64,000 nucleotides of DNA, from NCBI RefSeq assembly GCF_000009625.1, contig NC_002678.2:5984001-6048000 (forward strand), written 5' to 3'. How positions within the stretch are numbered: the stretch's first letter is position 1; each line of letters starts with the position of its first letter. The translations under genes were made by a program, and so were the position numbers. Positions 22,822-46,551 of this stretch are shown here, piece after piece. Under the pieces are notes generated by a model. The model was not told where the DNA came from and did no database searches. It saw only the letters and a list, made by a program, of their open reading frames with translations. The DNA is from Mesorhizobium japonicum MAFF 303099. Lineage in GTDB: Bacteria > Pseudomonadota > Alphaproteobacteria > Rhizobiales > Rhizobiaceae.

Positions 22822-22831
22822 GAAGTCGAGT

Positions 22832-23872
22832 ATGCGTAAGAGAATAGCGATCATTGGCGACAACTTCATGCTTCCGCAGGTGTTTCGCGCCAAAATCGAG
22901 AAGGTCGCTACTGGTGACCTCGATATCAGGACATTGCAGACGGCGTGGCCCGACGAGCCGATGGAGTTCGGCAATCCGGCGCTCGGCCTCGACAAGGTCA
23001 AGGAATATTTCGGCCACCCCGACGAGGTCGTCGATTTCATCGGCGATGCCGAGATCCTCGTCACCCAGCTGGCGCCCCTGTCGGAGGCCATGATGCGGCG
23101 CTTGCCGGCGCTCAAGCTGGTTGCCGTTTCGCGCGGCGGCCCGATCAACATCGACATGGCGGCCGCCAGGGCGCACGGCATCACCGTGGTCAACGTGCCG
23201 GGCCGCAACGCGACGGCCGTGGCCGAGTTCACCCTCGGCGCCATCCTGGCCGAGACGCGGCTGATCCGGGTCGGCCACGAGGCCTTGCGCAAGGGAGAAT
23301 GGCGCGGCGATCTCTACCGCGCCGACCGCACCGGCCGCGAACTCAGCGAAATGACCGTCGGCGTCATCGGCTATGGCAATATCGGCACCAAGGTCGTGCG
23401 CCTGCTGCGCGCCTTCGGCTGCCACGTCCTGGTCAGTGACCCCTATGTGCAGTTGAGCGCCGAAGACCGCAATGCCGGTGTCGAACTCGTCGCGCTGGAC
23501 AATCTGCTCGCCCGCTCCGACGTGGTCACGCTGCATCCCCGGGTGACCGAGGAGACGCGCGGCCTCATCGGCAAAGACGCCATCGCGCTGATGAAACCGG
23601 GCGTGATTCTCATCAACACCGCGCGCGGGCCGCTGGTCGACTATGACGCGCTCTACGAGGCGCTGGTTTCAGGGCAGATAGCCAGCGCCATGCTGGAGAC
23701 CTTCGCGGTCGAGCCGGTGCCGTCGGACTGGCCCTTGCTGCAACTGCCCAACGTGACGCTGACGCCGCATATCGCCGGCGCCTCGGTGCGCACCGTCACC
23801 TATGCCGCCGAACAGGCCGCCGAAGAGGTGCGCCGCTACCTAACCGGCCTGCCTCCGGTCAATCCGTGCTGA
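22832..23872 (+). CDS. D-isomer-specific 2-hydroxyacid dehydrogenase
   Basis: A 346-residue NAD(P)-dependent dehydrogenase of the phosphoglycerate/glycerate dehydrogenase family. The nucleotide motif VGVIGYGNIGTKVVRLL lies near residue 170, and the catalytic set is present: arginine in NTARGPLVDYD, glutamate in ETFAVEPVP and histidine in TPHIAGAS. It sits ten bases after eryA, inside the polyol operon. It is not part of the known erythritol pathway. It may oxidise or reduce a C4 hydroxyacid (tetronate type) or another acid formed from polyols; no substrate can be assigned from sequence. Confidence 0.82.
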   Translation: MRKRIAIIGDNFMLPQVFRAKIEKVATGDLDIRTLQTAWPDEPMEFGNPALGLDKVKEYFGHPDEVVDFIGDAEILVTQLAPLSEAMMRRLPALKLVAVSRGGPINIDMAAARAHGITVVNVPGRNATAVAEFTLGAILAETRLIRVGHEALRKGEWRGDLYRADRTGRELSEMTVGVIGYGNIGTKVVRLLRAFGCHVLVSDPYVQLSAEDRNAGVELVALDNLLARSDVVTLHPRVTEETRGLIGKDAIALMKPGVILINTARGPLVDYDALYEALVSGQIASAMLETFAVEPVPSDWPLLQLPNVTLTPHIAGASVRTVTYAAEQAAEEVRRYLTGLPPVNPC

Positions 23873-23917
23873 GGCAGTGGCCATGACTTTTCAAACCGGC
23901 ATCGAGGCCATGGCGAC

Positions 23918-25435
23918 ATGAACGGCGGTCCTGAAATCGTCGACCTCTTCGTCATCGGTGGCGGCGTCAATGGCGCCGGCATTGCGCGCGACGCCGCCGG
24001 CCGCGGACTTTCCGTCATCCTGTGCGAAAAGGACGACCTCGCCGAAGGCACCAGCTCGCGCTCGGGCAAGCTCGTCCATGGCGGCCTGCGCTACCTCGAA
24101 TATTACGAGTTCCGCCTGGTGCGCGAGGCGCTGATCGAGCGCGAGGTGCTGCTAGAATCGGCGCCGCACATCATCTGGCCGATGCGCTTCGTGCTACCGC
24201 ACAGCCCGGACGACCGACCGGCCTGGCTGGTGCGGCTCGGCCTGTTCCTCTACGACCATCTCGGCGGCCGCAAGCGGCTGCCGGCGACTCGAACGCTGAA
24301 CCTGCGCACGGCGCCCGAGGGCGCGCCGATCAAGGATGCCTTCAGGCGCGGCTTCGAATATTCCGACTGCTGGGTCGACGATGCCCGCCTCGTCGTCATC
24401 AATGCGCTCGACGCGGCCGAGCGCGGCGCCAGGGTTTTCACCCGCACCGCCTGCACCGCCGCCCGCCGTGAGAGCGGCCTTTGGGTTGTCGAGATGCGGG
24501 ATGGCAGGACGGGCATCAGGACGGTGGTTCGCGCCCGCGCGCTGATCAATGCCGGCGGCCCCTGGGTCAACGACATCGTCAACCGCGTTGCCGGCCAGAA
24601 CTCCACGCGCAATGTGCGCCTGGTCAAGGGCAGCCACATCGTCGTGCCGAAATTCTGGGAAGGGCGGCAGGCCTATCTCATCCAGAACAGCGACAAGCGT
24701 GTGATCTTCATCAACCCTTATCAGAACGATCTCGCCCTGATCGGCACCACCGACATCCCCTATGACGGCCGGCCCGAGGACGTGGCGGCGGATGAGAGCG
24801 AGATCGATTACCTGATCGCGGTGGTCAACCGCTATTTCAAGCGCGGCCTTGCGCGCGGCGATGTCGTCTATTCCTTCTCCGGCGTCAGGCCGCTCTATGA
24901 CGACAATGCCGACAACCCAAGTGCGGTGACCCGCGACTATATTTTCGAGCTCGACGCGCCGGACGCGCAGGCGCCGCTGCTTTCCGTCTTCGGCGGCAAG
25001 ATCACCACGTTCCGAAAACTGGCCGAGCATGCGCTGGACAGGATCGCGCCGTTCTTTCCCCATATGGGCAAGCCCTGGACCGCGAAGGCGCATCTGCCCG
25101 GCGGCGACATCGCCAATGCCGATTTCGAACAGTTTCTCGGCGACCTCGGAGGCGAATATCCCTGGATGCCGGCATCGCTACTGAAGCACTACGGCAGGCT
25201 CTACGGCACCAGGACGCGGGCCTTGGTTGGCCCGGCGCGTTCGCTCGATGAACTCGGGCGCTGCTTCGGCAAGGATTTCTTCGAGCGCGAGGCCAATTAT
25301 CTCTTCGACCGGGAATGGGCGGCGACATCAGCCGATATTCTCGAGCGGCGCACCAAGCACGGCCTGCATCTGTCCGCCGAGGAGAGGGCGGCCTTCGAGC
25401 ATTGGTGCGCGAACCGGCTGGCGAGGGCAGGCTGA
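23918..25435 (+). CDS. eryB: L-erythritol-4-phosphate dehydrogenase, FAD-dependent (GlpD-like)
   Basis: A 505-residue flavoprotein of the glycerol-3-phosphate dehydrogenase (GlpD) family. The FAD dinucleotide fold DLFVIGGGVNGAGIARDAAG lies at residues 9-28, with GTSSRSGKLVHGGLRYLEY shortly after and the C-terminal FGGKITTFRKLAEHAL. EryB oxidises L-erythritol-4-phosphate to L-erythrulose-4-phosphate, passing electrons to the membrane. Position between eryA and eryC favours EryB over a true GlpD, although the families are hard to separate. The ATG at 23918 gives a short N terminus ahead of the FAD motif. The stop overlaps the next start by one base (TGATG). Confidence 0.85.
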   Translation: MNGGPEIVDLFVIGGGVNGAGIARDAAGRGLSVILCEKDDLAEGTSSRSGKLVHGGLRYLEYYEFRLVREALIEREVLLESAPHIIWPMRFVLPHSPDDRPAWLVRLGLFLYDHLGGRKRLPATRTLNLRTAPEGAPIKDAFRRGFEYSDCWVDDARLVVINALDAAERGARVFTRTACTAARRESGLWVVEMRDGRTGIRTVVRARALINAGGPWVNDIVNRVAGQNSTRNVRLVKGSHIVVPKFWEGRQAYLIQNSDKRVIFINPYQNDLALIGTTDIPYDGRPEDVAADESEIDYLIAVVNRYFKRGLARGDVVYSFSGVRPLYDDNADNPSAVTRDYIFELDAPDAQAPLLSVFGGKITTFRKLAEHALDRIAPFFPHMGKPWTAKAHLPGGDIANADFEQFLGDLGGEYPWMPASLLKHYGRLYGTRTRALVGPARSLDELGRCFGKDFFEREANYLFDREWAATSADILERRTKHGLHLSAEERAAFEHWCANRLARAG

Positions 25436-26493
25436 TGGCGCATTCGGGCGACAACCACTCCAGCGAATTCTGCATGCTGCGCTCCTTGTCCGCCAGCATT
25501 GGCGCCGACCCGTTGCTGGTCCAGGGCGCCGGCGGCAACACCTCCATCAAGCAGGCCGGCGTGCTGTGGATTAAGGCATCGGGCACCTGGCTGAAGAATG
25601 CGCGCGACGATGAGATCATGGTGCCGGTCGCGCTGGCGCCGTTGCTCGATGCCGTGTCGCATCGCAGTCCAGCGGCGGAGGCCGCGGGGCAGTTCACGCT
25701 GGCGGATCTCAACCCTCGCCAGCTGCGGCCCTCCATCGAGACGACGGTGCACGCGCTGCTGCCGCAGAAGATCGTCGTCCACGTCCATTGCGTCGAGACG
25801 ATCTCGATCGCCGTGCAGGCCAATGCCGAAGCCTTGCTGGAGGGGCGCCTGCGCGGCCTCGACTGGGCCTTCGTGCCCTATCGCCGACCCGGCCTGCCGC
25901 TGGCGCAGGCAATCGCCGAGCGGCTGAAGCCCGCGACCAACGTGCTCGTGCTTGGCAATCACGGCCTGGTGGTCGCCGCCGATACGGTCGCCGAAGCAGC
26001 CTTGCTGCTGCAAAGGGTGACCGGGCTGCTCGCACGGCAGCCGCGCCCGGCTCCGCCGCCCGATCTCGATGCGCTTCTGAGGCTCGCCGCCGGCAGCGAC
26101 TACCGGCTGCCGGCCTCGACCGCCGCGCATGCCGTTGCGACCGACCTCGCCAGTTGCCGCATCGCCGCCTCCGGCAGCCTCTACCCGGATCATGTGATCT
26201 TCCTTGGTGTCGGTTCGGTGATCGCCGGCCCCGGCGAGAACGCGGCAGCGGTCGTCGCCCGCACTGCAGCCGCGCCGACATCCATCCTCTTTCCCGGCAA
26301 GGGCGTGCTGATGCGCCGGGAGGCCAATGCCGGCGCCGAAGCGATGGCGCGCTGCCTGGCCGACGTCGTCGCGCGCGTCGATGGCGCTGCGCGTGTCAAT
26401 TATCTCAGCCCAAAGGAGAATGCCGAACTGCTGAACTGGGACGCCGAGAAATATCGCCAGCAACTCAACCGCGAAGGGGCGACGCTGCAATGA
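25435..26493 (+). CDS. Class II aldolase/adducin-family protein
   Basis: A 352-residue class II aldolase-fold protein. The phosphate-binding loop is GAGGNTSIK near residue 30, the zinc ligands appear in VVHVHCVETIS near residue 105, and a third histidine in GNHGLVV near 170. The C-terminal 170 residues extend past the fuculose-phosphate aldolase fold, much as in the aldolase half of RhaD-type fusions, but no dehydrogenase domain follows. ATG 25435 shares a base with the eryB stop. It is not one of the accepted EryABC-HI steps. Possible roles are cleavage or decarboxylation of a C4 or C5 sugar (acid) phosphate, perhaps with the hydroxyacid dehydrogenase of the same operon. Confidence 0.75.
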   Translation: MAHSGDNHSSEFCMLRSLSASIGADPLLVQGAGGNTSIKQAGVLWIKASGTWLKNARDDEIMVPVALAPLLDAVSHRSPAAEAAGQFTLADLNPRQLRPSIETTVHALLPQKIVVHVHCVETISIAVQANAEALLEGRLRGLDWAFVPYRRPGLPLAQAIAERLKPATNVLVLGNHGLVVAADTVAEAALLLQRVTGLLARQPRPAPPPDLDALLRLAAGSDYRLPASTAAHAVATDLASCRIAASGSLYPDHVIFLGVGSVIAGPGENAAAVVARTAAAPTSILFPGKGVLMRREANAGAEAMARCLADVVARVDGAARVNYLSPKENAELLNWDAEKYRQQLNREGATLQ

Positions 26494-29653: not shown

Positions 29654-29701
29654 CCCCTGAAATCGGCAGATCGTGATCAACAAAGTCAAGGAGCAGTGCG
29701 C

Positions 29702-30460
29702 GTGGTCTACTGGGTCGGTACAAGCTGGAAGATGAACAAGACGCTCGCCGAGGCACTGGATTTCGCGGAGCGCCTGGCAGGCTTCATTCCCGGTTTCGAT
29801 GACCGCATCCAGCCCTTCGTCATCCCACCTTTCACGGCGGTGCGCGAGGTCAAGCGGGCGCTGTCGTCGACGCGCATCAAGGTCGGTGCGCAGAACATGC
29901 ATTGGGCCGATGCCGGCGCCTGGACCGGCGAGATTTCGCCACCGATGCTGAGGGATTGCGGGCTCGATCTGGTCGAACTCGGCCACAGCGAACGGCGCGA
30001 GCATTTTGGCGAGACCGATCGCACCGTCGGCCTGAAAACGGCTGCCGCCGTGAAGCACGGGATGATACCGCTGATCTGTGTCGGCGAGACGCTGGCCGAG
30101 CGCGAAAGTGGGCAGGCCGATGCCGTGCTGAGCGCCCAGGTCGAGGGCGCGCTGCAGTTCCTCGAAGGCGAGGCGAAGACCGCGAAAATCCTGTTCGCCT
30201 ACGAGCCGGTCTGGGCGATCGGCGACAAGGGCATTCCGGCCAGCGCCGACTATGCCGACAAGCAGCAGGCATTGATCAAGACAGTGGCCGGCGCCCTGCT
30301 GCCGTCGGTGCCGCCGGTGCTTTATGGCGGCAGCGTCAATCCCGGCAATGCCGCCGAGCTGGTCGGCCAGCCCAATATAGACGGCCTCTTCATCGGCCGT
30401 TCCGCCTGGCAGGCGGACGGCTACATCGACATTCTCGGCCGCGCCTCGGCGGCGATCTGA
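29702..30460 (+). CDS. tpiB: Triose-phosphate-isomerase-like L-erythrulose-1-phosphate isomerase
   Basis: A 252-residue TIM barrel of the TpiA family. The family motifs are present: [11 protein letters not shown] (residues 4-14, catalytic lysine), [15 protein letters not shown] (catalytic histidine, near 92), [13 protein letters not shown] (catalytic glutamate, near 165) and [11 protein letters not shown]. In erythritol catabolism this paralogue (EryH) converts L-erythrulose-1-phosphate to D-erythrulose-4-phosphate. Two GTG codons are candidates. The one at 29702 is chosen because AAGGAG lies eight bases upstream, whereas 29696 is only two bases from it. rpiB follows 28 bases after the stop. 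Confidence 0.85.
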
Positions 30461-30488
30461 AACCATCCGGACACGAAAAGGGAAAAAC

Positions 30489-30932
30489 ATGAAAATAGCC
30501 ATTGGAGCCGACAGCGCCGGCAAGCCGCTGCTCGATGTCATCGCCGCGCACCTTGCCACCAAATCCGGCCTGACGGTCAGCGATCTCAGCCAGGCGGGCT
30601 ATTATGCCGACCTGTCGCAAAAACTCGCCCAGACCATCATCGACGGCGAGAACGATCGCGGCATCCTGTTCTGCGGTACCGGCATCGGCGTCTCGATCTC
30701 GGCCAACAAGGTGCCGGGAATCCGCGCCGCGCTCACCCACGACACCTATTCGGCCGAGCGCGCGGCGAAATCCAACAACGCGCAGATCATCACCATGGGC
30801 GCCCGCGTCATCGGCCCGGAACTGGCCAAGGCGATCGTCGATACGTGGCTCGCCTCCGAGTTCGATGAACAAGGTCCCTCGGCCGGCAATGTCCAGGCGA
30901 TCAACAGGCTCGACGCGGCGGCGAAACGTTAG
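30489..30932 (+). CDS. rpiB: RpiB-type D-erythrulose-4-phosphate isomerase
   Basis: A 147-residue isomerase of the RpiB/LacAB family. It begins [14 protein letters not shown], has the active cysteine in [21 protein letters not shown] near residue 62-80, and [18 protein letters not shown] after it. In the erythritol route (EryI) it makes D-erythrose-4-phosphate, the end product that enters central metabolism. The gene closely follows tpiB. Its stop overlaps that of dhaL by four bases tail to tail (30929-30932), leaving no room for a terminator between them. Confidence 0.88.
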
Positions 30933-35345: not shown

Positions 35346-36440
35346 CTATGCCCGTTCGGGGAACATCGCCTTCAGGCCCTCGCGCGAGGCCTTGGCGACA
35401 CCGCGTTCGGTGATCAGGCCGGTCACCAGTCGCGCCGGGGTCACGTCGAAGGCCGGATTCGCCGCCGGCGTTGCCTCGGGCGATATGCGCACCTGGGCGA
35501 TCTCGCCGCTGACGGTCTTGCCCCAGACAAGCGAGACCTCGTCGGCCGAACGCTGCTCGATAGGGATCTCCTCGAGCCCGTCATGCACCGTCCAGTCGAT
35601 GGTCGGCGAGGGCAGCGCGACATAGAACGGCACGTCATTGTCGGCGGCGGCGAGCGCCTTCAAATAAGTGCCGATCTTGTTGCAGACATCGCCGTCGGCA
35701 GTGGTGCGGTCGGTGCCGACGATGACCATGTCGATCGCGCCACGCTGCATCAGATGGCCGCCGGCATTGTCGACGATCAGCGTGTGCGGCACGCCGTGGC
35801 CGGCCATCTCCCAGGCGGTGAGCTGGGCGCCCTGGTTGCGCGGCCGCGTTTCGTCGACATAGACATGGACCGGGATGCCCGCTTCCGTTGCCAGATAGAT
35901 CGGCGCGGTGGCGGTGCCGTAATCGACGGTCGCCAGCCAGCCGGCATTGCAATGGGTGAGGATATTGACCGTCTCACCCGGCTGCTTGCGCGCCGCGATC
36001 GCCTTGATGATGGCAAGACCGTTCTCGCCGATGGCGCGGTTCAGCCCAACATCCTCGTCGGCGATCTCACCGGCGCGCCGGTAGGCGGCCGCGGCGCGTT
36101 GTTCTGAAGGCAGCGGCTTGAGGAAGCGCCGCATCTCATCCAGCGCCCAGCGCAGATTGATCGCCGTCGGGCGCGTCTCGTGCAGTGTCTCCCACACGCC
36201 ATCGAGCGCTGCGTCGGACGGATCATCCGCCATCTGCATGGCGACGCCGTAGGCCGCGGTGACGCCGATCAGCGGCGCGCCGCGCACCCACATGTCGCGG
36301 ATGGCGGTCGCAATTCCGGCAACCGTGCCGATCGTCTCGATGCGGAAATCATGCGGCAGCCAGCGCTGGTCGATGATCTCGACCGAACGCCCGTCGTCGC
36401 TCAGCCAGATGGTGCGGTAGTGGCGGTCGCCGACGTTCAA
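35346..36440 (-). CDS. mtnA: S-methyl-5-thioribose-1-phosphate isomerase
   Basis: A 364-residue isomerase of the eIF2B-like family that converts 5-methylthioribose-1-phosphate to 5-methylthioribulose-1-phosphate. Family motifs include [19 protein letters not shown] near residue 50, [20 protein letters not shown] near 160 (active cysteine) and [20 protein letters not shown] near 235 (active aspartate). The start is TTG at 36440, overlapping the mtnK stop, with GGAG eight bases upstream. Related isomerases also act on 5-deoxyribose-1-phosphate. No later enzymes of the classic methionine salvage route (mtnB, C, D) lie in the window. Confidence 0.93.
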
Positions 36441-37708
36441 ATGCTGCTCTCCTGTTCGATCAGCGCGGCCAGGGTATTGACCTCGTCGATGCTGTGTATC
36501 TGGCGCCGGTTGACGGCGATGTGGCGGCCGAACTTCAACGCCTTTGCCTCACAACTGGCGCGAAGCGCTTCATCGGCAATGGTCTCGAAATCGGCATTGT
36601 GGGCGAGGCCAAGGATGCGCCTGTGCACCTCGATGCCGGCAAAGCCGAGCAGATCGGTCCAGATTTGGTGCAGCACATGGTCGAGCGCCTGTTCCGCGCC
36701 CAGCCTGTCGCCCTGATCCTCAAACAGACTTTTTTGGTAGAGCATGCCGGCGCGCTCGGTGCGCCACAGATGCGAGAATTCGGCGCGGAACACCGACCAC
36801 GTCTCTTTGGTGACCCCGAGCAAATAAGCGCGCATGGCATCGCGCTTGCCCTTCTGCTCATGTCCGCGCTGCGAGAAGAAGGACATCCAGAAATTGGCGA
36901 GCAGCATGCCGATATCGAAGGCCATCGGTCCGTAGAAGGCGAACTCCGGGTCGATCATCCGGGTCTCCGTGTCGGTGACCATGATCGAGCCGGAATGCAG
37001 ATCGCCATGCAGCAGCGTCTCTGCATTGGCGGCGAAAATGTGCTTCAGCCGTTGCGCCTCGACCTTGAGGTCGCGGTCGGCACGCAGTTCGGCAACGACG
37101 CTGTCGAGCTGCGGCGTATGCCGGTTCATCTTGGCGTCGAAATAGGGATCGGAGAACACCAGGTTCTCTGTGATGTCGCAGAGCTCCACATTGTCGGCGA
37201 ACAGCGCCAGATCGGCCTTGCGATCCTTGGTCACCATCGACAGGTCGGAACCGCGAAACAGCGTGCGGGCCATGAACAGGCCGATATCCCTGGCGATGTT
37301 GGGCAACTGGCGCCCGTCGATCAAAGCGCGCCTGAGAATGACGTGTGGCGGCGCCAGATACTCCATGATGATCAGCGCCTGGCCTTCATCGAAATGATAG
37401 ATCGCCGGGACTGAGCCCGGCGCGCGCGCCTCTTGCCTTGTCAGCGCGTGATACTCGAAGAAGGAGCGCTTCAACGGCAACGGCCAGCTGTCGCCGACCA
37501 GGCGGACATAGGGCAGGGCCTGCTTGACCACCGCGGCACCGCCGGCGCCCTCGACGATGAAGACGAGGTTCAGATTGCCGTCGCCGACCTCTCGGACCTT
37601 CCAGTGTGTCGTGTGCCTGCCGATCTTGGCGCACAGCGCCTCATTCGTGCCGAGGCGCGTTGCAAGCGTCTCCACCGACAGTGCTTCGAACGGCAATTTC
37701 CCGGTCAT
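36437..37708 (-). CDS. mtnK: S-methyl-5-thioribose kinase
   Basis: A 423-residue choline-kinase-fold enzyme that phosphorylates 5-methylthioribose at C1. The nucleotide region shows [14 protein letters not shown] near residue 37, the catalytic loop is [12 protein letters not shown] near 230, and the metal site is [16 protein letters not shown] near 247, a diagnostic MTR-kinase sequence. ATG 37708 follows GGAGGGACACG; the upstream frame lacks such a site. It is translationally coupled to mtnA and diverges from the RbsABC-type importer, with a strong dyad between them. Kinases of this group can also accept 5-deoxyribose, a by-product of radical-SAM enzymes. Confidence 0.93.
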
Positions 37709-37780
37709 TCGTGTCCCTCCCGCCTGTGCGCTCCGATCATAAGGGAGCCTTGACGGCGGGGCCAAGCTAGGAAGCGATCT

Positions 37781-37809
37781 GGCAATTGTCAATCGTGTTG
37801 ACAATTGCC
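37781..37809. promoter_or_regulatory. Perfect dyad operator between mtnK and the importer genes
   Basis: Arms GGCAATTGTCAA (37781-37792) and TTGACAATTGCC (37798-37809) are perfectly complementary around five bases. The right arm contains a TTGACA. It lies in the 137-base divergent promoter region, 37 bases before the ATPase start and 73 before mtnK. The SorC-family protein encoded at 43743-44708 is the best candidate to bind it. Confidence 0.75.
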
Positions 37810-37845
37810 GATGTAGCCCATAGCGTCACGGTCAGGGAGGAACGC

Positions 37846-39357
37846 ATGGTCGGCAATGCCGTGTTCCGTGTAGAGGGACTGAGGAAATCCTTTGGCCGTA
37901 ACGAGGTGCTTGGCGGCATCTCGCTCGAGCTGCATTCCGGCGAAGTCACCGTGCTGATGGGCGCCAATGGCGCCGGCAAATCCACCCTCGTCAAGATCGT
38001 CAGCGGCCTCTACGAACGCGGCGGCGGTAGCATGATCCTCGCCGACCAGGCTTTTGCCCCGAACACGCCGGCGGAGGCGATCCGCGCCGGCGTCGTCACC
38101 GTGCACCAGAATATCAATGACGGTGTCGTCGCCGACCTCGATGTCGCCACCAATTTGACGCTCGACAGGCTGAGCGGCAAGGGCGTGCCGACCCTGTTCA
38201 ATCCGGCCCGAGTGCGCCGCGAGGCCAAGGCGGTCGCCGACCGCATGGGTCTGGCCATCGATCTCAAGGCCCGTGTCAACGACCTTTCGCTAGCCGATCG
38301 CCAGATGGTGGCGATCGCGCGCGCCTTGGCGCATCAGCCGAAAGTGCTGATCCTCGACGAGCCGACCTCTTCGCTCTCCAGCGCCGAGGCCGACCGGCTG
38401 TTCGCTCTGGTCGAGCGGCTGCGTGAGCAGGGCGTGGCGATCCTCTACATCTCGCACCGCATGTCCGACATCAGGCGGCTTGCCGATCGCATCGTCTCGA
38501 TGCGTGACGGCGTCATTTCGGGCGTCTTCGACACCAAGCCGCTCGACTACGAAGGCGCGGTCAATGCCATGCTCGGCCGCAAGATCCATCTAGACCAGAT
38601 CGTGGCCAGGAGTTCGGCCAAACCGGTCCTGACGATCGAAGGCTTGCGCATCGGGCAGGGCGCCAGGCCGATTTCGCTGACGCTTGGCGATGGCGAGGTC
38701 GTTGCCATCACCGGCCTCGTCGGCGTCGGCAAGACCGCGCTTGCCGAGACGCTGTTCGGCGTGCGCAAGCCGCTTGCCGGCACCATGACGATGAGCGGCA
38801 AGCCCTATGCGCCGCGATCGGCGGGCGATGCGATCGCCGCCGGCGTGTTCCTCGTCGCCAAGGACCGCGCCAGCAGCGGCATTGTCGGCGGCTTCAACAT
38901 CGAGCGCAATGTCAGCCTGCCGTTCCTCAAGCGTATGTCGAATCTTGGTGTGCTCAAGCGCCGCCTCGAGCGCGCCACCGCGCGCCGGCAGATCGAGGAA
39001 CTCAGCATCGTCTGCCGTTCCGAGAAGGACGAGATGTCGGCATTGTCCGGCGGCAACCAGCAGAAGGTGATGGTCGCCCGCTGGATGGCGCAGAATGCCG
39101 CGCTGTTCATTCTCGACGAGCCGTTTCAGGGCGTCGACATCTCGGCCAGGCGCGACATCGCCGCCAAGCTGAGAGCAAGCGCCAATGGCCGCGCGACGCT
39201 GTTGTTCGTCACCGAACTCGACGAGGCGCTGGAGACGGCCGACCGCATCCTGGTGATGTCGGAACACACAATCGTCGGTGAACACCGCAATGCCGAAGTC
39301 GATCTCGATCGCCTGCTGGCCGAGGTCGCCGGCGGGCCGCTGCACAGCGCCGCCTGA
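37846..39357 (+). CDS. Sugar ABC transporter ATP-binding protein, RbsA/MglA type (tandem ATPase)
   Basis: A 503-residue protein with two nucleotide-binding domains. The first has Walker A GANGAGKST near residue 40, signature LSLADRQMVAIARAL and Walker B ILDEPTSSL. The second has the degenerate Walker A GLVGVGKTALAET near 290, signature LSGGNQQKVMVARWM and Walker B ILDEPFQGVD. This is the CUT2 arrangement used for pentoses and other monosaccharides. ATG 37846 follows GGGAGG; the longer frame starts inside the operator. Divergence from mtnK suggests import of methylthioribose, deoxyribose or a related free pentose. Confidence 0.9.
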   Translation: MVGNAVFRVEGLRKSFGRNEVLGGISLELHSGEVTVLMGANGAGKSTLVKIVSGLYERGGGSMILADQAFAPNTPAEAIRAGVVTVHQNINDGVVADLDVATNLTLDRLSGKGVPTLFNPARVRREAKAVADRMGLAIDLKARVNDLSLADRQMVAIARALAHQPKVLILDEPTSSLSSAEADRLFALVERLREQGVAILYISHRMSDIRRLADRIVSMRDGVISGVFDTKPLDYEGAVNAMLGRKIHLDQIVARSSAKPVLTIEGLRIGQGARPISLTLGDGEVVAITGLVGVGKTALAETLFGVRKPLAGTMTMSGKPYAPRSAGDAIAAGVFLVAKDRASSGIVGGFNIERNVSLPFLKRMSNLGVLKRRLERATARRQIEELSIVCRSEKDEMSALSGGNQQKVMVARWMAQNAALFILDEPFQGVDISARRDIAAKLRASANGRATLLFVTELDEALETADRILVMSEHTIVGEHRNAEVDLDRLLAEVAGGPLHSAA

Positions 39358-39391
39358 GCGTGGCGGCCGGTAGAATTGGAATGGAGAGACC

Positions 39392-39442
39392 ATGGGTCCG
39401 AGTTGGATAGGAATGGCTGCGTCGCGCGGGTGCGCTGAATGA
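39392..39442 (+). other. Possible 16-residue coupling ORF before the permease gene
   Basis: ATG 39392, preceded by GGAGAG, opens a frame MGPSWIGMAASRGCAE whose TGA overlaps the permease ATG (ATGA, 39439-39442). The permease has no strong ribosome site of its own, so translational coupling through this ORF is possible. No evidence favours a functional peptide. Confidence 0.25.
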
Positions 39443-40434
39443 CGCTGCGCGACCACACCATACGCTATGGGTTCATCGTCCTGCTGTTCGGGCTCGTCGC
39501 CTATTTCGCGATCGCCGCCGATGGGTTCGTCTCGCCGCAAAGTGCCGTCTTCATCTTCCAGTCGGTCGCCATCACCGGCGTGCTGGCGCTCGGCGTCACC
39601 GCCACGCTGGTCGTCGGCGGCTTCGACCTGTCGATCGGCTCGGTCGCCACGTCGGCCATGATGGCGGCTGCCTATGTGATGGTGGTGCTGGAGCAGAACG
39701 CCGTCGTGGCGGTCGTTGTCTGCCTGCTCATCGGCGCCATTGTCGGCCTGATCAATGGCTGGCTGATCGTCTATATGCGCGTGCCCGATCTCTTGGCGAC
39801 GCTCGGCATGATGTTCCTGCTGGTCGGCCTGCAGCGCATCCCGACCGAAGGCCGCTCGATCGCCACCGGCATGACCATGCCCGACGGTTCGGTCGCCAAT
39901 GGCAAGTTCGGCGGCGCCTTCCTGGCGCTCGGCCGCCACCGTTTCGACTTCTTCATCCCGAACCTCATTCCGGTGTCGGTCGTCGTGCTGCTGGTGCTGG
40001 CCGTGCTGATCTGGTTCTTCCTCGAATACACCCGCTTCGGCCGTATGATGTATGCGGTCGGCTCCAATGAGCGCGCCGCCGAACTCGCCGGTGCGCCTGT
40101 CAAGGCATACAAGATCTGGGCCTACGTTATTTCAGGAGTTTTTGCCTCGATCGGCGGCATTTTGCTCGCCGCCCGGCTTGGACGCGGCGACATCGCCTCG
40201 GGTAATAATCTGCTGCTCGATGCAGTTGCCGCGGCGCTGATCGGCTACGCGGTGTTGGGTGCCGCCAAGCCGAACGCCTTCGGCACCGCAGTCGGCGCGC
40301 TGTTCGTCGGCATCTTGCTGCAAGGCCTGACGATGATGAACGCGCCTTACTACACGCAGGATTTCGTCAAGGGCGTGGTTCTGGTCGTCGCCCTTGTCTT
40401 CACCTTTGCCCTTTCGGGCAGGGGCAGGGGGTAG
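39439..40434 (+). CDS. Sugar ABC transporter permease, RbsC type
   Basis: A 331-residue inner-membrane permease of the CUT2 class with about nine helices. The family marker GGFDLSIGSVATSAM lies near residue 57, and NERAAELAGAPVKAYKIWAYVISG near 212 is the usual ATPase-contact loop. It works with the tandem ATPase and the binding protein at 40483. One permease gene is present, so it would act as a homodimer, unlike the two-permease rhamnose system of R. leguminosarum. The ATG at 39439 overlaps the stop of the small upstream frame. Confidence 0.9.
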   Translation: MTLRDHTIRYGFIVLLFGLVAYFAIAADGFVSPQSAVFIFQSVAITGVLALGVTATLVVGGFDLSIGSVATSAMMAAAYVMVVLEQNAVVAVVVCLLIGAIVGLINGWLIVYMRVPDLLATLGMMFLLVGLQRIPTEGRSIATGMTMPDGSVANGKFGGAFLALGRHRFDFFIPNLIPVSVVVLLVLAVLIWFFLEYTRFGRMMYAVGSNERAAELAGAPVKAYKIWAYVISGVFASIGGILLAARLGRGDIASGNNLLLDAVAAALIGYAVLGAAKPNAFGTAVGALFVGILLQGLTMMNAPYYTQDFVKGVVLVVALVFTFALSGRGRG

Positions 40435-40482
40435 TCTCGACCGGACAGGATTTTGGGTTCAACAAGAGTGGAGGAAAACAAG

Positions 40483-41535
40483 GTGAACATCACGAGAAGA
40501 CTTCTGGGGAAGGTGGCGCTCGGGCTGGCCGGCGCAACCATGCTGATGCAGGTCCCGGCTTTCGCCGCGGACAAGCCGGCCCCGTTCGATAAGCCCGGCG
40601 TCAAGATCGCGCTGGTGCGCTATCTCTCGACCGGCGACTTCTTCCAGGCCTACCTCTCGGGCGTCGAGGCGCAGTCCAAGGCGCTTGGCATCGACCTGCG
40701 CGTGCTCGACAGCCGCCAGGATGCCGCCCTTCAGTCCGATATGGTCGACCAGGCCATCGCGCTCGGCGTGCAGGGCATCATCATCCAGCACGGCCTGACG
40801 GAATCGATGAAGGATGCGGCCCAGCGCGCGGTCGACGCCGGCATCAAGGTTGTGGCCTTCGACGTCAATGTCGAAAACCCCAAGATCCCGCAGATCGAGC
40901 AGTCGGACAAGGACCTTGCCCGCCTCGCGCTCGAGCAGGCGGTGAAGGACAATGGTGACAGCTGGAATGCCGGCTATGTCTACGTCGCCGGAATCGCGCC
41001 GCTCGACCGCCGCAACGAGACCTGGGTCGACGTGAAGAAGAAATATGCGGGCATCAAGGAAGTCGCGATGTTCGGCACGCTCGACAACCCGATCGCCAAC
41101 TCCGTCGCCAACCAGGCGCGTTCGGTGCTGTCGGCCCATCCCGACATCAAGGTGATGTTCGCCCCCTATGACGAATTCGCCAAGGGCGTGAAGATCGCCG
41201 TCGACGAGGCCGGCCTGAACAAGGGCATCAAGATCTATTCGGCCGACATCTCGACATCGGACATATCGGCGATGCGCGAGCCCGACAGCGCCTGGGCCGC
41301 GACCGCGGCGACCAACCCGGCCGTCGTCGGCCAGGTCTCGGTGCGCGCTCTGGCGCAACTGCTCGCCGGTGAAGACCCCGGCCACAACGTCATCGTGCCG
41401 CCGACGCTGATCACCCAGAAGGAGCTGATCGACAAGGACATCAAGAACATGGAAGACCTGTCGGCCAAGCTGCCGCAGTTCGCCCATGCAAATGTCGCCA
41501 TGCCGGCCTGGATGCCGAACCCGAACGCGAAGTAA
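40483..41535 (+). CDS. Periplasmic sugar-binding protein, RbsB type
   Basis: A 350-residue periplasmic binding protein of family Peripla_BP_4. A Sec signal peptide spans about residues 1-29 (KVALGLAGATMLMQVPAFAA); the mature domain includes VKIALVRYLSTGDFFQAYLSG and ALGVQGIIIQHG. It starts at GTG 40483 with GGAGG eight bases upstream; an earlier TTG lacks a site. It is the last gene of the importer, followed by a clear terminator. The ligand is unknown; context favours 5-methylthioribose or 5-deoxyribose. Confidence 0.9.
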   Translation: MNITRRLLGKVALGLAGATMLMQVPAFAADKPAPFDKPGVKIALVRYLSTGDFFQAYLSGVEAQSKALGIDLRVLDSRQDAALQSDMVDQAIALGVQGIIIQHGLTESMKDAAQRAVDAGIKVVAFDVNVENPKIPQIEQSDKDLARLALEQAVKDNGDSWNAGYVYVAGIAPLDRRNETWVDVKKKYAGIKEVAMFGTLDNPIANSVANQARSVLSAHPDIKVMFAPYDEFAKGVKIAVDEAGLNKGIKIYSADISTSDISAMREPDSAWAATAATNPAVVGQVSVRALAQLLAGEDPGHNVIVPPTLITQKELIDKDIKNMEDLSAKLPQFAHANVAMPAWMPNPNAK

Positions 41536-41556
41536 GGTTCATCATCGCGCAAACGA

Positions 41557-41585
41557 AAAGGGCGGCCTTGAGCCGCCCTTTTTGT
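41557..41585. terminator. Bidirectional terminator after the sugar importer genes
   Basis: Arms AAAGGGCGGC (41557-41566) and GCCGCCCTTT (41572-41581) with a five-base loop, continuing into T residues. The A-run on the left serves the convergent aldolase gene. Confidence 0.85.
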
Positions 41586-41600
41586 TGTCTTCTGGAAAGC

Positions 41601-43655
41601 CTACCGCAGCGCCGCCGCGATGTTGCCGCCGTCGACCGTCGTCACGTCGGCGGTGGTACGTTCGGCCAGCGCGTGATGCAGGAAGGCCTGCGCCACATCC
41701 TGTGCCGTCACTTCCTGGCCGAGCAGGTTGCCGGACATGTATTCCTTCTCGGACACGCCGCGCGCGCCGGAGCGACTGGCGATCATGGCGTCGGTCAAAA
41801 GGCCGGAGCGGATACGGTCGGCGTTGACGGCGTTCGAGCGGATGCCATGGGCGCCGTAGTCGAGCGCATATTGCCTGGACAGGAACAAAGTCGCCGCCTT
41901 CGGCACGCCATAGGCGCCGAATTTCGGGCCCGGATTGACCGCCTGCTTGGAAGTGTTGAACAACAGCACGCCGCCAGTGCCCTGTTCCAGCATGATGCGC
42001 ACGGCGTTCTGCGCCACCGACTGATGGGCGAAGAAATTGAGCTCGAAGCTCTTGCGCAGCAGCGCATCGTCGAGCTCGCCGATCCGGCCTTCCCAAGCCG
42101 CACCCGCATTGGAGACCAGGATATCGACGCCGCCGAAGACGGCGACCGCTTTGTCGAAGGCGGCACGCACCTGGGCTGGGTCGGTGATGTCGGCGGCGAC
42201 ACCGATCGAATTGTTGCCGGCTTTCTTGGCGGTATCGGCGGCTTTGTCGCCATCGAGATCGACGACGACGGCATGGGCGCCATTGTCGGCGAACAGCTTT
42301 GCCGTTGCAGCCCCGATTGCGCCGGCGCCGCCGGTGATCAGCACCACCTGGCCGGTCAGCGGCTTCGGCTTGTTCGAGGCAAGCTTGGCCTGTTCGAGCG
42401 ACCAGTATTCGAGCGGGAACAAATCGGCCTTGGACAGCGGATGGAAACGGCCGACGGCTTCGGCGCCACGCACCGCCTCGATCCACATCTCGCCGACATC
42501 GGAGGCGATCCTGGCATCCTTCAGCGTGCGGCCATGGCCGAACATGCCGAGTCCCGGCACCAGCGTCAGCCGCGGCATCGGGTCGAGCATGGTGCGCTTG
42601 ACGTCGTCGAGCGCGTCATTGGTCTCGAAATAGGCGCGATAGTCCTTGGCGAAAGCGTCGACATGGCTCTTGATGACGGCCTTGTAGTCGCCAACCTTGT
42701 CGGCGTCGGGCGCCGGCACCGCCATCGGTCCGGTCTTGATGCGGATCGACAGATCCGGCGTCGACACGCCGCGCCCGGCATAGTCGGCGATCGCGGCCGA
42801 GTTGATGAAATCGACGATTGCATCCGAGGTGCGGAAATCAGAGATCATGCGGTCGAAGCGGCCTTCGCCACGCGCCACCGCAACGGCGCCGCGCAGCATC
42901 GGCGCGATGGACGCCGGCGTCGCGAGCCTTGCCGGCAACGCCGCCTTGGCAGCCTTCGGCTTGGCATTCTCAGCGACGTACTCCTCGGCGACGTTCACAT
43001 AGTGGATCATCCGGTCGTAGGCCTGTTTGGCATCGTCACCGAAGGTGAAGATGCCGTGCTTGTCGAGGATCAGTCCTTCGACAGTCGGGTCGGCATCGAA
43101 GACGTCGGCCGCCGCCTTGGCGAGGTCGAAGCCCGGCATGATGTAGGGCACATAACCCATCTTGCTGCCGAACACTGTCTTCACCAGCGGCTTCGAATCT
43201 TCCTGGTCGACGATGGCCAGGATAGCGGTCGAATGGGTGTGGTCGACGAATTTATGCGGCAGGAAGGCATGCAGCAGCGTCTCGACCGAGGGGTTGGGCG
43301 AGGACGGGTCGATGAGGTTCGCCCGCTGCAGCGCCACCATGTCCTCGTCCGCGAGCTTGTCCAGCGCGCGCGCCTTGAGCAGGGCGCCCATCTTGACCGC
43401 CGGCAGGCCCTGCGGCTCGATGACGGCCATGTCCCAGCCGCTGCCCTTGACGCACAGCACATCCCATTCATCGCCGACGAGATCGGTCGCCTTGATCTTG
43501 CAGGACGTGTTGCCGCCGCCATGCAGGACCAGCTGTGGCACGCCGCCCAGCAGCCGCGTCGTGTAGACGCGCAGCGCGAGGTCGCGGCCGACACCCTTCT
43601 TCGCATAGTCGGCGACGAGTTTCTCGGCCGTTTCGTCGTTCCACAAATTCTTCAT
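41601..43655 (-). CDS. Bifunctional class II aldolase / short-chain dehydrogenase fusion
   Basis: A 684-residue two-domain protein. Residues 1-410 are a class II aldolase: HGGGNTSCK near 45 (phosphate site), zinc ligands in FVDHTHSTAIL (His139, His141) and LDKHGIFTFG near 200. Residues 430-684 are a short-chain dehydrogenase: VLITGGAGAIGAATA near 437 (NAD site), VSNAGAAWEG and the catalytic YGVPKAA near 585. The closest known type is the rhamnulose-1-phosphate aldolase/alcohol dehydrogenase of rhizobia (RhaD). No rhamnose isomerase or kinase is here. With mtnK, mtnA and an importer it would suit cleavage of 5-methylthioribulose- or 5-deoxyribulose-1-phosphate to DHAP and an aldehyde, the second domain acting on the aldehyde. 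That role is inference. Confidence 0.88.
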   Translation of the reverse strand: MKNLWNDETAEKLVADYAKKGVGRDLALRVYTTRLLGGVPQLVLHGGGNTSCKIKATDLVGDEWDVLCVKGSGWDMAVIEPQGLPAVKMGALLKARALDKLADEDMVALQRANLIDPSSPNPSVETLLHAFLPHKFVDHTHSTAILAIVDQEDSKPLVKTVFGSKMGYVPYIMPGFDLAKAAADVFDADPTVEGLILDKHGIFTFGDDAKQAYDRMIHYVNVAEEYVAENAKPKAAKAALPARLATPASIAPMLRGAVAVARGEGRFDRMISDFRTSDAIVDFINSAAIADYAGRGVSTPDLSIRIKTGPMAVPAPDADKVGDYKAVIKSHVDAFAKDYRAYFETNDALDDVKRTMLDPMPRLTLVPGLGMFGHGRTLKDARIASDVGEMWIEAVRGAEAVGRFHPLSKADLFPLEYWSLEQAKLASNKPKPLTGQVVLITGGAGAIGAATAKLFADNGAHAVVVDLDGDKAADTAKKAGNNSIGVAADITDPAQVRAAFDKAVAVFGGVDILVSNAGAAWEGRIGELDDALLRKSFELNFFAHQSVAQNAVRIMLEQGTGGVLLFNTSKQAVNPGPKFGAYGVPKAATLFLSRQYALDYGAHGIRSNAVNADRIRSGLLTDAMIASRSGARGVSEKEYMSGNLLGQEVTAQDVAQAFLHHALAERTTADVTTVDGGNIAAALR

Positions 43656-43742
43656 GTTCGCTTCGTCCAGTTGCTGTCTTGGGTGGTGAAACAGGAATGC
43701 CGCGACGCCTTGATGACAATGCGCCGGCGAAGGGTTGCTTTT

Positions 43743-44708
43743 TCAGGATGCTTTCTGTGGCATCGCTCCGGCATGATCGAGCAGCCGTTGCGCCATATGC
43801 GCGCCGACCACAAGATGCGTGCAAAGCCCGCCCGCGAGCGCCGCGAGCAATGGCTCGAACTTGCTGTCCTCCTGCACCACCATCAAGCGTTTTTCGATGG
43901 CACGCAGCGAACCGAGTTCAGCCGAAATGACCCGGCGGTTGTAGCTGCAGTCGAGCGCCTCGCCCCTGGCGTCGATGATCTGTCCGGCAATCACCCCGGC
44001 TGCGCCGATGCCGCGCAGCGCGGCCATTTCGTCCGGGTTGAGCGCGCCGCATTTGACGACATGGCTGTCTGCATCGACGGTGCCGACGGAGAAAAGCGCG
44101 AGATTGCAATCGCTGATGCCGGCCAGCTGTTCGCGGATCACCGGCTCGGCGCGCAACGCACGCGCGAGATCTTCCGTCGACAGCACCAGCGGCGCATAGA
44201 AATTAAGCCCCTTGGCGTTCAGCCGGCGCGCAATTTCCATGGTGCACTGGTCGGGCCGATAGGAGTAGGGCGCGCCGAGATTGCCGCAGAGCTGCACCAC
44301 CGTGACATCCTGCAGGTCGGCATAGGACATGATGTCGGCGATCGTATAGACGGTGCGGCCCCAGGCGACGCCGATGCGGTCGCCCTTCTTGACCAGTTCG
44401 AGAAAGACGCTCGCCGCCAGCACGGCGATATCAGTCGAAGGGTCCGGGATATAGCCGTTCTCCGGCGCGATCCAGACCGCGTCGAGCTTCAAGGCGTCCT
44501 CGAGCCTGCGCGCCATCACGTCGTCGGTGAACAGCTGCGTCGAGGTCGAGATGTTGACGATGCCGGTCTCGCGCGCCTTGCGCAGATACATGGCCACCGA
44601 AGCACGCGAAATGTTAAGCTGGCTTGCAACCTGGTCCTGCCGCAGGCCATGCGCATAGTAGAGCCAGGCGGCTTTGTGAATGAGTTGTTCTGCCGGTCGG
44701 ATCGCCAT
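43743..44708 (-). CDS. SorC-family sugar-binding transcriptional regulator
   Basis: A 321-residue regulator. The helix-turn-helix is HKAAWLYYAHGLRQDQVASQ plus LNISRASVAMYLRKARETG (residues 11-48), followed by the SorC effector domain with IGVAWGRTVYTIADIM near 130 and VVQLCGNLGAP near 155. ATG 44708 follows GAGGAGACGGC; the upstream frame gives only a longer tail. It lies 87 bases before the aldolase fusion on the same strand, so both may be one transcript. A loosely similar half-site to the mtnK dyad (GCCAATTTGAC, minus strand near 44750-44760) lies upstream of it, which would fit autoregulation. Confidence 0.87.
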   Translation of the reverse strand: MAIRPAEQLIHKAAWLYYAHGLRQDQVASQLNISRASVAMYLRKARETGIVNISTSTQLFTDDVMARRLEDALKLDAVWIAPENGYIPDPSTDIAVLAASVFLELVKKGDRIGVAWGRTVYTIADIMSYADLQDVTVVQLCGNLGAPYSYRPDQCTMEIARRLNAKGLNFYAPLVLSTEDLARALRAEPVIREQLAGISDCNLALFSVGTVDADSHVVKCGALNPDEMAALRGIGAAGVIAGQIIDARGEALDCSYNRRVISAELGSLRAIEKRLMVVQEDSKFEPLLAALAGGLCTHLVVGAHMAQRLLDHAGAMPQKAS

Positions 44709-44910
44709 GCCGTCTCCTCGGCTGACATTAGTCACGGCTCTCGACAAAAGTCAAATTGGCATGCGTGAGTGCGATCGCCTCTAAATAAAACGTATCCGGG
44801 ATGGTCGTTCTACAAAGCCTGGACAGCATAGCATCTTCGGCCATTCAGGGGGATGGCCTGACGAGAGCCCTAAGGTTAGAAATCTCGAAAAGGACTTTGG
44901 GGAGGATGGG

Positions 44911-46551
44911 ATGGCCAATTCTTACGAACAGGATCTCGACAGGAACGCGGCCAACCACCAGCCGCTGACGCCGCTCACCTATCTGGAGCGCGCGGCAAAG
45001 ACCTATCCCGACCACATCGCCATCATCCACGGCCGCCAGCGCATCAGCTACCGCGATTTCTGGCGCCGCTCGCTGAAGGTCGCATCGGCACTGCAAAAGC
45101 GCGGCATCGGCAAGGGCGACACGGTCACCGTGATGCTGTCCAACACGCCGCCGATGCTGGAGGCGCATTTCGGTGTGCCGATGACCAAGGCGGTGCTGCA
45201 TTCGCTCAACACCCGCCTCGACGCCGCGGTCATCGCCTTCCAGCTCGACCATGCCGAGACCAAGGTGCTCATCGTCGACCGCGAATTCTCCGGCGTCGTC
45301 CGGCAGGCGCTCGATCTGGCCAAGGTCACGCCGCTGGTCATCGACTATGACGATCCCGACTACGCCGCCGACGCCCCCTATCCGAAGGGGGAACGGATTG
45401 GCGCGCTCGACTATGAGGACTTTGTCGCCGGTGGCGACGAGGATTTCGCCTGGTCGATGCCCGACGATGAATGGGACGCCATCTCGCTCAACTACACCTC
45501 GGGCACGACGGGCAATCCGAAGGGCGTGGTCTACCACCATCGCGGTGCCGCCCTGATGGCCTACACCAACACCATCCATGCCGGCATGGCCAAGCACGCC
45601 GTCTATCTCTGGACGCTTCCGATGTTCCACTGCAATGGCTGGTGCTTTCCGTGGACGCTGGCCGTCCAGGCCGGCACCCATGTCTGCCTGCGCTGGGTGC
45701 GGCCGAAGCCGATCTATGACGCCATCGCCGATCATGGCGTCACACATCTCTGCGGCGCGCCGGTCGTCATGTCGGTGCTGATCAACGCCCGGGATGAGGA
45801 CAAGCGCACGTTCGCGCAGACGGTGACCTTCAACACCGCGGCCGCGCCGCCGCCGGAAGCCGTGCTGTCGGGGATGGCCGATGCCGGCTTTGCCGTCACC
45901 CATCTCTATGGCCTGACCGAGACCTATGGCCCGGCCGTGGTCAACGAATGGCATGGCGAATGGGACGATCTCGCAAAGGGCGAGCGCAGCGCCAAGAAGG
46001 CAAGGCAGGGCGTGCGCTATGCCGCGCTCGAAGGCCTGACCGTCATGGACCCCGAGACGATGCAGGCGACGCCGGCCGACGGCGAGACCATCGGCGAGGT
46101 CATGTTCCGCGGCAACATCGTCATGAAGGGCTACCTCAAGAACCGCAAGGCCAGCGACGAAGCGTTCGCCGGCGGCTGGTTCCATTCCGGTGATCTCGGC
46201 GTCATGCATCCCGATGGCTACATCCAGCTCAAGGACCGTTCCAAGGACATCATCATTTCGGGCGGCGAGAACATTTCCTCGATCGAGGTCGAGGATGCGC
46301 TCTACAAGCACCCGTCCGTCGCCTCCTGCGGCGTTGTGGCGCGCCATGACGACAAATGGGGGGAGGTGCCGGTTGCCTATGTCGAGCTGAAGCCCGGCAA
46401 GACGGCGAGCGAGGCCGAGATCATCGAGCACTGCCGTGCGCTGCTTGCCCGCTTCAAAGTGCCGAAAGCGGTGATTTTTGCCGAGATCCCGAAGACCTCG
46501 ACCGGCAAGATCCAGAAATTCCGACTCCGCGAAATGGCCAAACTCGCCTGA
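44911..46551 (+). CDS. Acyl-CoA synthetase, medium/long-chain or DmdB-like
   Basis: A 546-residue AMP-forming ligase that activates a carboxylic acid as its CoA thioester. Motifs: LNYTSGTTGNPKGVVYHHRG near residue 195 (AMP site), HLYGLTETYGP near 330, GWFHSGDLGVMHPDGYIQLKDR near 425, and the catalytic lysine in TSTGKIQKFRLRE at the end. It resembles the alphaproteobacterial group that contains 3-methylmercaptopropionyl-CoA ligase (DmdB) as well as ordinary medium-chain enzymes; the substrate cannot be decided. GGGGAGGATGGG precedes ATG 44911. It stands alone between the SorC gene and the TetR/RND genes. Confidence 0.85.
   Translation: MANSYEQDLDRNAANHQPLTPLTYLERAAKTYPDHIAIIHGRQRISYRDFWRRSLKVASALQKRGIGKGDTVTVMLSNTPPMLEAHFGVPMTKAVLHSLNTRLDAAVIAFQLDHAETKVLIVDREFSGVVRQALDLAKVTPLVIDYDDPDYAADAPYPKGERIGALDYEDFVAGGDEDFAWSMPDDEWDAISLNYTSGTTGNPKGVVYHHRGAALMAYTNTIHAGMAKHAVYLWTLPMFHCNGWCFPWTLAVQAGTHVCLRWVRPKPIYDAIADHGVTHLCGAPVVMSVLINARDEDKRTFAQTVTFNTAAAPPPEAVLSGMADAGFAVTHLYGLTETYGPAVVNEWHGEWDDLAKGERSAKKARQGVRYAALEGLTVMDPETMQATPADGETIGEVMFRGNIVMKGYLKNRKASDEAFAGGWFHSGDLGVMHPDGYIQLKDRSKDIIISGGENISSIEVEDALYKHPSVASCGVVARHDDKWGEVPVAYVELKPGKTASEAEIIEHCRALLARFKVPKAVIFAEIPKTSTGKIQKFRLREMAKLA

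Follow-up and report, generated by a model that had tools for sequence, protein, structure and literature searches.

The genes considered here lie in Mesorhizobium japonicum MAFF 303099 (genome of 7.6 Mb), within a window, meaning the whole stretch of DNA that was analyzed, of 64,000 nt (NC_002678.2, positions 5,984,001 to 6,048,000; feature coordinates are those of the window). The locus is organized as three transcription units: (i) the kinase and isomerase genes mtnK-mtnA on the minus strand, (ii) a sugar importer on the plus strand composed of ATPase, permease and periplasmic substrate-binding protein (SBP) genes, and (iii) a SorC-type regulator gene followed by the gene of a class II aldolase - short-chain dehydrogenase (SDR) fusion protein on the minus strand. 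The importer unit diverges from mtnK-mtnA, and the regulator-fusion unit converges on the importer. The initial annotation had grouped mtnK, mtnA, an RbsABC-type importer, the fusion and a SorC regulator, and scores against curated families and Pfam confirm each member. Based on comparison of sequences, the locus is quite probably an importer-fed, oxidative form of the dihydroxyacetone phosphate (DHAP) shunt.

Kinase, isomerase and importer

The mtnK gene (36437..37711, minus strand) encodes an S-methyl-5-thioribose kinase that scores 504 bits against TIGR01767 (cut-off 275), and the product of mtnA (35346..36440, minus strand) scores 424 bits against TIGR00512 (cut-off 279); the kinase and isomerase of a DHAP shunt are, thus, both present above their family cut-offs. 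The two genes overlap by 4 bases when the mtnK start is taken as ATG 37711, which is more likely than the upstream TTG 37804. MtnA provides the single PF01008 match of the whole genome and is the sole MtnA found. Among proteins of the PDB, MtnK matches 2pyw ('uncharacterized protein', 335 bits) and the methylthioribose kinase 2olc (252 bits).

The importer consists of an RbsA/AraG-like (MtrA-like) ATPase (37846..39357, plus strand; PF00005 in two stretches), an RbsC-like permease (39439..40434, plus strand; PF02653, 147 bits) and an SBP (40483..41535, plus strand) predicted to bind 5-methylthioribose. The ATPase more likely starts at ATG 37846, as this codon stands behind a ribosome-binding site (GGGAGG), than at TTG 37786, which falls within a palindrome described below. 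The closest solved structure to the SBP is 4RY8, titled a 5-methylthioribose transporter SBP, followed by 5ULB. The proximity to 4RY8 suggests that 5-methylthioribose is bound, and on this match the choice of sugar leans towards methylthioribose. The locus genes probably import this waste sugar and split it. The principal substrate may instead be 5-deoxyribose derived from radical S-adenosylmethionine enzymes, with methylthioribose incidental, a possibility that is real but doubtful: clusters of a kinase, an isomerase and an aldolase process 5-deoxyribose, and DrdK takes both sugars (PMC6079011), whereas the top structural match of the SBP carries the methylthioribose title.

An RbsABC-type three-gene importer adjoins mtnK-mtnA in the window and likewise in three further loci (L172, L174 and L175). 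This arrangement resembles MtrABC, a predicted importer whose genes adjoin mtnK-mtnA in Bacillus cereus and enterobacteria (PMC3228920), and the nearest structures of the window SBP (4RY8, then 5ULB) add to the likeness. The two systems differ in their company, as MtrABC sits with the classic salvage genes mtnBCD, while the window importer sits with genes that we infer to be of the DHAP-shunt type. A dedicated importer had been considered new in the initial annotation; this was not borne out, given MtrABC (PMC3228920), the putative sugar transporters already published for 5-deoxyribose clusters (PMC6079011) and the known methylthioribose-binding structure.

The aldolase-dehydrogenase fusion family

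The fusion protein (41601..43655, minus strand) scores 1160 bits against NF006192 (cut-off 639), a family whose name, 'bifunctional aldolase/short-chain dehydrogenase', gives no substrate. Its score against the rhamnulose family TIGR02632 is 491 bits, under the cut-off of 568. From its family and neighbors, the fusion is predicted to be a (methylthio/5-deoxy)ribulose-1-phosphate aldolase joined to an aldehyde dehydrogenase.

The distribution of the family was surveyed in 289 genomes drawn evenly from alphaproteobacteria, with three fusion candidates scored per genome. NF006192 is above cut-off in 50 of the genomes and MtnA in 126. The two co-occur, with mtnA in 45 of the 50 genomes that carry the fusion and 81 of the 239 others (p = 9e-14 by Fisher's test, with no correction for relatedness); two of the five fusion genomes that lack mtnA over the cut-off (G200 and G099) carry MtnA fragments. 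MtnP is above cut-off in 42/50 fusion genomes vs 95/239 others. With the window locus included, mtnA is within 8 kb of the fusion in 28/50 (an MtnA fragment in G200 and G196), mtnP is within 10 kb in 20/50, and one or the other is nearby in 33/50. Ten loci group mtnP, mtnA and the fusion with a putative apt gene. In G147 (L142), mtnK, mtnA and the fusion stand side by side.

The fusion shares with RhaEW (TIGR02632) its domain order, the three aldolase histidines and the SDR active-site residues, and many records label the family a rhamnose enzyme, as with 'rhamnose utilization protein RhaD' in JGI records. The neighborhoods of related bacteria suggest that this rhamnose label is wrong. While RhaEW orthologues are stated to lie always in rha loci (PMC3870299), the NF006192 subfamily lies outside them in the loci examined: rhaI is matched in none of 49 NF006192 neighborhoods (those of the 50 fusions apart from the window's own, fetched at 4.5 to 20 kb each) but beside 10/10 rhamnose-type fusions. 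The latter are 10 of the 12 full-length fusions listed below the NF006192 cut-off. The other two (L200 and L201, of G194 and G287), with 32-33% identity and with no rhaI, mtnA or mtnP nearby, represent a third type of aldolase-dehydrogenase fusion.

In a tree of 60 fusions, the 10 rhamnose-type proteins form one clade (support 100/100) and the 48 NF006192 proteins, the window's included, are set off by a long branch (support 100/99); the tree is rooted at the midpoint and carries a long-branch warning for L170, L198 and L169. Within the 48, the fusions that adjoin mtn genes do not form a single clade (14 label changes). The genome of M. japonicum also encodes a second fusion, ~1.4 Mb away, which scores 1065 bits against TIGR02632 and belongs to a separate rhamnose cluster that also encodes RhaI (912 bits) and RhaS (522 bits). 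The window fusion shares 32-35% identity with this rhamnose-type protein. The initial annotation had pointed out that the locus lacks rhamnose isomerase; the rhaI found in the genome (L171) stands beside the second fusion, ~1.4 Mb from the window fusion. A role of the window fusion as a rhamnulose-1-phosphate enzyme, with its proximity to mtnK-mtnA incidental, is therefore extremely improbable and was rejected on family score, neighbors, tree and the separate rhamnose cluster.

The residues His139, His141, His200, Asp466, Asn516, Ser569, Tyr582 and Lys586 are conserved in all 48 NF006192 and all 10 rhamnose-type fusions; thus, both active sites of the fusion look complete. Position 125, which we align with the catalytic Glu of FucA, is Glu in 47/48 of the NF006192 clade (one gap) vs Asp in 10/10 of the rhamnose clade, a difference that may matter and that further separates the window protein from RhaEW. 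The aldolase domain (PF00596) of the locus, thus, contains E125, H139, H141 and H200; the roles of E125 as catalytic acid and of the three histidines in the metal site are presumed from FucA/RhaD. Asp466, found in 58/58 fusions, fits the use of NAD+ under the usual rule for SDRs. A fold search with the model of the fusion (mean predicted local distance difference test score, pLDDT, of 76) covers the dehydrogenase domain only (residues ~430-681), with the aldolase part barely covered.

Several observations weigh against the assignment of the family to the mtn pathway. Seventeen of the 50 fusions have no mtnA or mtnP nearby, although some of these loci are cut by short contigs; mtnA is elsewhere in 14 of the genomes and not found over the cut-off in three (G030, G112 and G286). 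The nearest relatives of the window fusion in the tree (L124 and L128, on contigs <12 kb) are not beside mtnA, and the fusion is found in only 4/10 mtnK genomes. An enzyme acting on another ketose-1-phosphate, formed by MtnK/MtnA-like enzymes from a different sugar, would account for the 17 isolated fusions; this is nonetheless very improbable, as mtnP within 10 kb in 20/50 suggests that the sugar stems from methylthioadenosine or 5'-deoxyadenosine, and MtnK and MtnA are well above their equivalog cut-offs. In favor of the assigned step, the order mtnK-importer-mtnA in G168 (L172) is directly followed by a separate FucA-type aldolase, read as the same pathway step filled by another aldolase. 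An unfused SDR near this aldolase was excluded from the operon because it is 0.8 kb off, with an opposing reading frame between.

Proposed pathway and direction of the aldehyde step

In the proposed pathway, the MtrABC/RbsABC-type importer would take up 5-methylthioribose, and perhaps 5-deoxyribose, MtnK would phosphorylate the sugar and MtnA would isomerize the product to the ribulose-1-phosphate. The fusion would split this intermediate into DHAP and 2-(methylthio)acetaldehyde (or acetaldehyde), and its dehydrogenase domain would oxidize the aldehyde with NAD+ to (methylthio)acetate (or acetate). Methylthioadenosine and 5'-deoxyadenosine formed inside the cell would enter via a nucleosidase of the TIGR01705 family encoded elsewhere in the genome (443 bits, cut-off 152), the presence of which means that internal methylthioadenosine could yield methylthioribose. 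No TIGR01704 nucleosidase and no MtnP (cut-off 275) are found above cut-off in the genome; two weak MtnP matches, at 87 and 83 bits, belong to a purine nucleoside phosphorylase and an MTAP-like protein, respectively.

The core of the pathway, from import through kinase, isomerase and aldolase-dehydrogenase to DHAP and an oxidized aldehyde, is a prediction well supported by comparative evidence. The gene families, candidate catalytic residues, absences searched for across the genome, conservation and neighborhoods are read from the sequences themselves, and the substrate, the oxidative direction and the effector and site of the regulator are deduced from them. The same succession of steps had been outlined in the initial annotation and is strengthened here; the fusion is, however, no rhamnose enzyme taken over by a single locus but a member of a separate subfamily found by mtnA/mtnP in many alphaproteobacteria.

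Oxidation of the aldehyde is expected by analogy with RhaEW, which converts rhamnulose-1-phosphate and NAD+ to DHAP and lactate, is inactive with NADH and forms DHAP and lactate only when NAD+ is supplied (PMC3870299). The reading predicts an acid, not an alcohol, as product. It is possible, though unlikely, that the pathway is the same and the dehydrogenase domain instead reduces the aldehyde to 2-(methylthio)ethanol or ethanol, as in unfused pathways. Short-chain dehydrogenases commonly run in both directions, which counts for reduction. In Rhodopseudomonas palustris the aldehyde was found reduced to 2-(methylthio)ethanol, with a putative alcohol dehydrogenase (PMC5893883), an outcome that speaks against oxidation and so keeps the reductive route as a rival, and E. 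coli makes ethanol aerobically (PMC10986504). Against reduction, the nearest tested fusion type, RhaEW, is inactive with NADH (PMC3870299), yet the two fusion types share only 32-35% identity.

A classic methionine salvage pathway was considered as the alternative fate of the sugar phosphate and rejected. In the genome of M. japonicum there is no PF03079 match (MtnD). Six proteins have a class II aldolase domain (PF00596), namely the window fusion, the rhamnose fusion and four others, and none of the four has an MtnB match at E 1e-20. The initial annotation had called for a search for these genes elsewhere; neither mtnB nor mtnD was found, while mtnC and mtnE were not searched. The sole RuBisCO-like protein is OiaX (779 bits, cut-off 700), with 113 of 514 bits for MtnW. 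This OiaX (L186, G000:C1:5770805-5771647) is a 3-oxo-isoapionate-4-phosphate decarboxylase and points to apiose/apionate breakdown. Among the 289 genomes, mtnD and the fusion do not avoid each other. A clear mtnD (>60 bits) is carried by 12 genomes (20 are above the Pfam cut-off), 6 of which also carry the fusion; the routes, therefore, are not mutually exclusive, which counts against the proposed reading.

The DHAP shunt as a pathway type, and MtrABC as an importer type, are already known. The shunt of Rhodospirillum rubrum, R. palustris and E. coli (MtnP or MtnN+MtnK, MtnA, Ald2) and drdKIA of Bacillus thuringiensis use the same kinase and isomerase families as the window, and in both a class II aldolase takes the next step, as in the window. 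The lack of any MtnB or MtnD found in the M. japonicum genome is a further likeness to the shunt. The known systems use a free FucA/Ald2-type aldolase, whereas in the window a RhaE-type domain is joined to the dehydrogenase in one protein, and the window differs further by an importer and a SorC-type regulator in the same locus. The regulator of the E. coli shunt is the DeoR-family repressor MtnR (PMC12632272).

What is new is the assignment of the NF006192 fusion family to the aldolase step of the DHAP shunt and, hence, an oxidative version of this shunt; searches of an open-access library, at the level of listings and abstract openings, found no such assignment, with most subscription papers outside that scope. 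On balance, there is reason to favor NF006192 as the dedicated aldolase-dehydrogenase of methylthioadenosine/5'-deoxyadenosine salvage in alphaproteobacteria, in which the aldehyde would pass straight to oxidation to give DHAP and (methylthio)acetate and to which Mesorhizobium would add an importer. As the reactive aldehyde is passed directly to oxidation in that reading, alphaproteobacteria would run an oxidative DHAP shunt. If true, a substrate is given to a family carried by 50/289 sampled alphaproteobacterial genomes, the disposal of methylthioadenosine and 5'-deoxyadenosine is explained in alphaproteobacteria without the classic pathway, and a candidate is provided for the aldehyde-handling step left to a putative alcohol dehydrogenase in published DHAP shunts. 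Mesorhizobium, in turn, could feed on a sugar shed by other organisms.

Regulation and conservation of the locus

The regulator gene (43743..44747, minus strand, exact start uncertain) lies upstream of the fusion gene on the same strand and encodes a SorC/DeoR(Bacillus)-type sugar-sensing protein with PF04198 (172 bits). The protein matches full-length 8r7y (a deoxyribonucleoside regulator, 119 bits) and LsrR chains from residue 16-20 on and, thus, combines an N-terminal DNA-binding region with PF04198, as expected of the SorC type; its NF053881 score is 164 bits, under the cut-off of 420. A perfect palindrome with 12-base arms, GGCAATTGTCAA-N5-TTGACAATTGCC, is found at 37781..37809, in the intergenic region from which mtnK and the importer genes diverge, and is the sole match in the genome when the arms are spaced 3 to 7 bases. 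A promoter-like site directed towards mtnK (37765-37736, by consensus match only) is close beside it. Because of its position between the two units, the palindrome is likely the operator of the SorC-type regulator, which would control the divergent mtnK and importer operons there until a sugar phosphate of the pathway appears. Upstream of the regulator and fusion genes, no clear palindrome was found that could serve as another operator.

Conservation was counted in the best 80 of 255 stretches with an mtnK relative, 77 of which are titled Mesorhizobium. The importer ATPase, mtnK and mtnA are present in 80/80 loci in the same order and orientation, a grouping that is real and not chance. The permease and SBP are present in 78/80, the fusion in 75/80 (71 at >80% coverage) and the regulator in 60/80 (54 at >80%), with gene order and orientation constant across the 80 loci. 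Missing genes are at the ends of contigs or of fetched stretches; the fusion is lacking in five loci, of which two (L024 and L028) are very short contigs and three (L067, L073 and L075) are on contigs that stop before or at the place where the gene could follow. The palindrome core, CAATTGTCAA followed by 4-7 bases and TTGACA, is in 80/80 loci (the exact long form in 52/80) and also in L175, a locus of another family. The core is absent from the other 8 of 9 mtnK loci scanned in other genomes, and L174 has a SorC-type regulator but no core; both points weigh against the proposed reading.

At least 15 of the more distant loci have a gap of ~3.3 kb between the SBP and fusion genes. In L079 (1929-5186), the one locus in which this insert was read, it includes a D-Ala-D-Ala ligase-like gene and a tetratricopeptide repeat (TPR) protein with a transcription-regulator domain; these were dismissed as pathway parts, having no evident link to the locus. 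Diverging from the SorC-type gene of the window is an acyl-CoA synthetase gene (44911-46551; NF006020, 930 bits), which adjoins the regulator in 47/80 loci and has a possible role in activating (methylthio)acetate. Elsewhere in the window, a polyol-type cluster (29696-30932 and 21268-26493) encodes a triose-phosphate isomerase, a D-erythrulose-4-phosphate isomerase (NF051858), an FGGY kinase, a glycerol-3-phosphate dehydrogenase and a separate class II aldolase-domain protein (25315-26493). This cluster resembles the erythritol locus of rhizobia.

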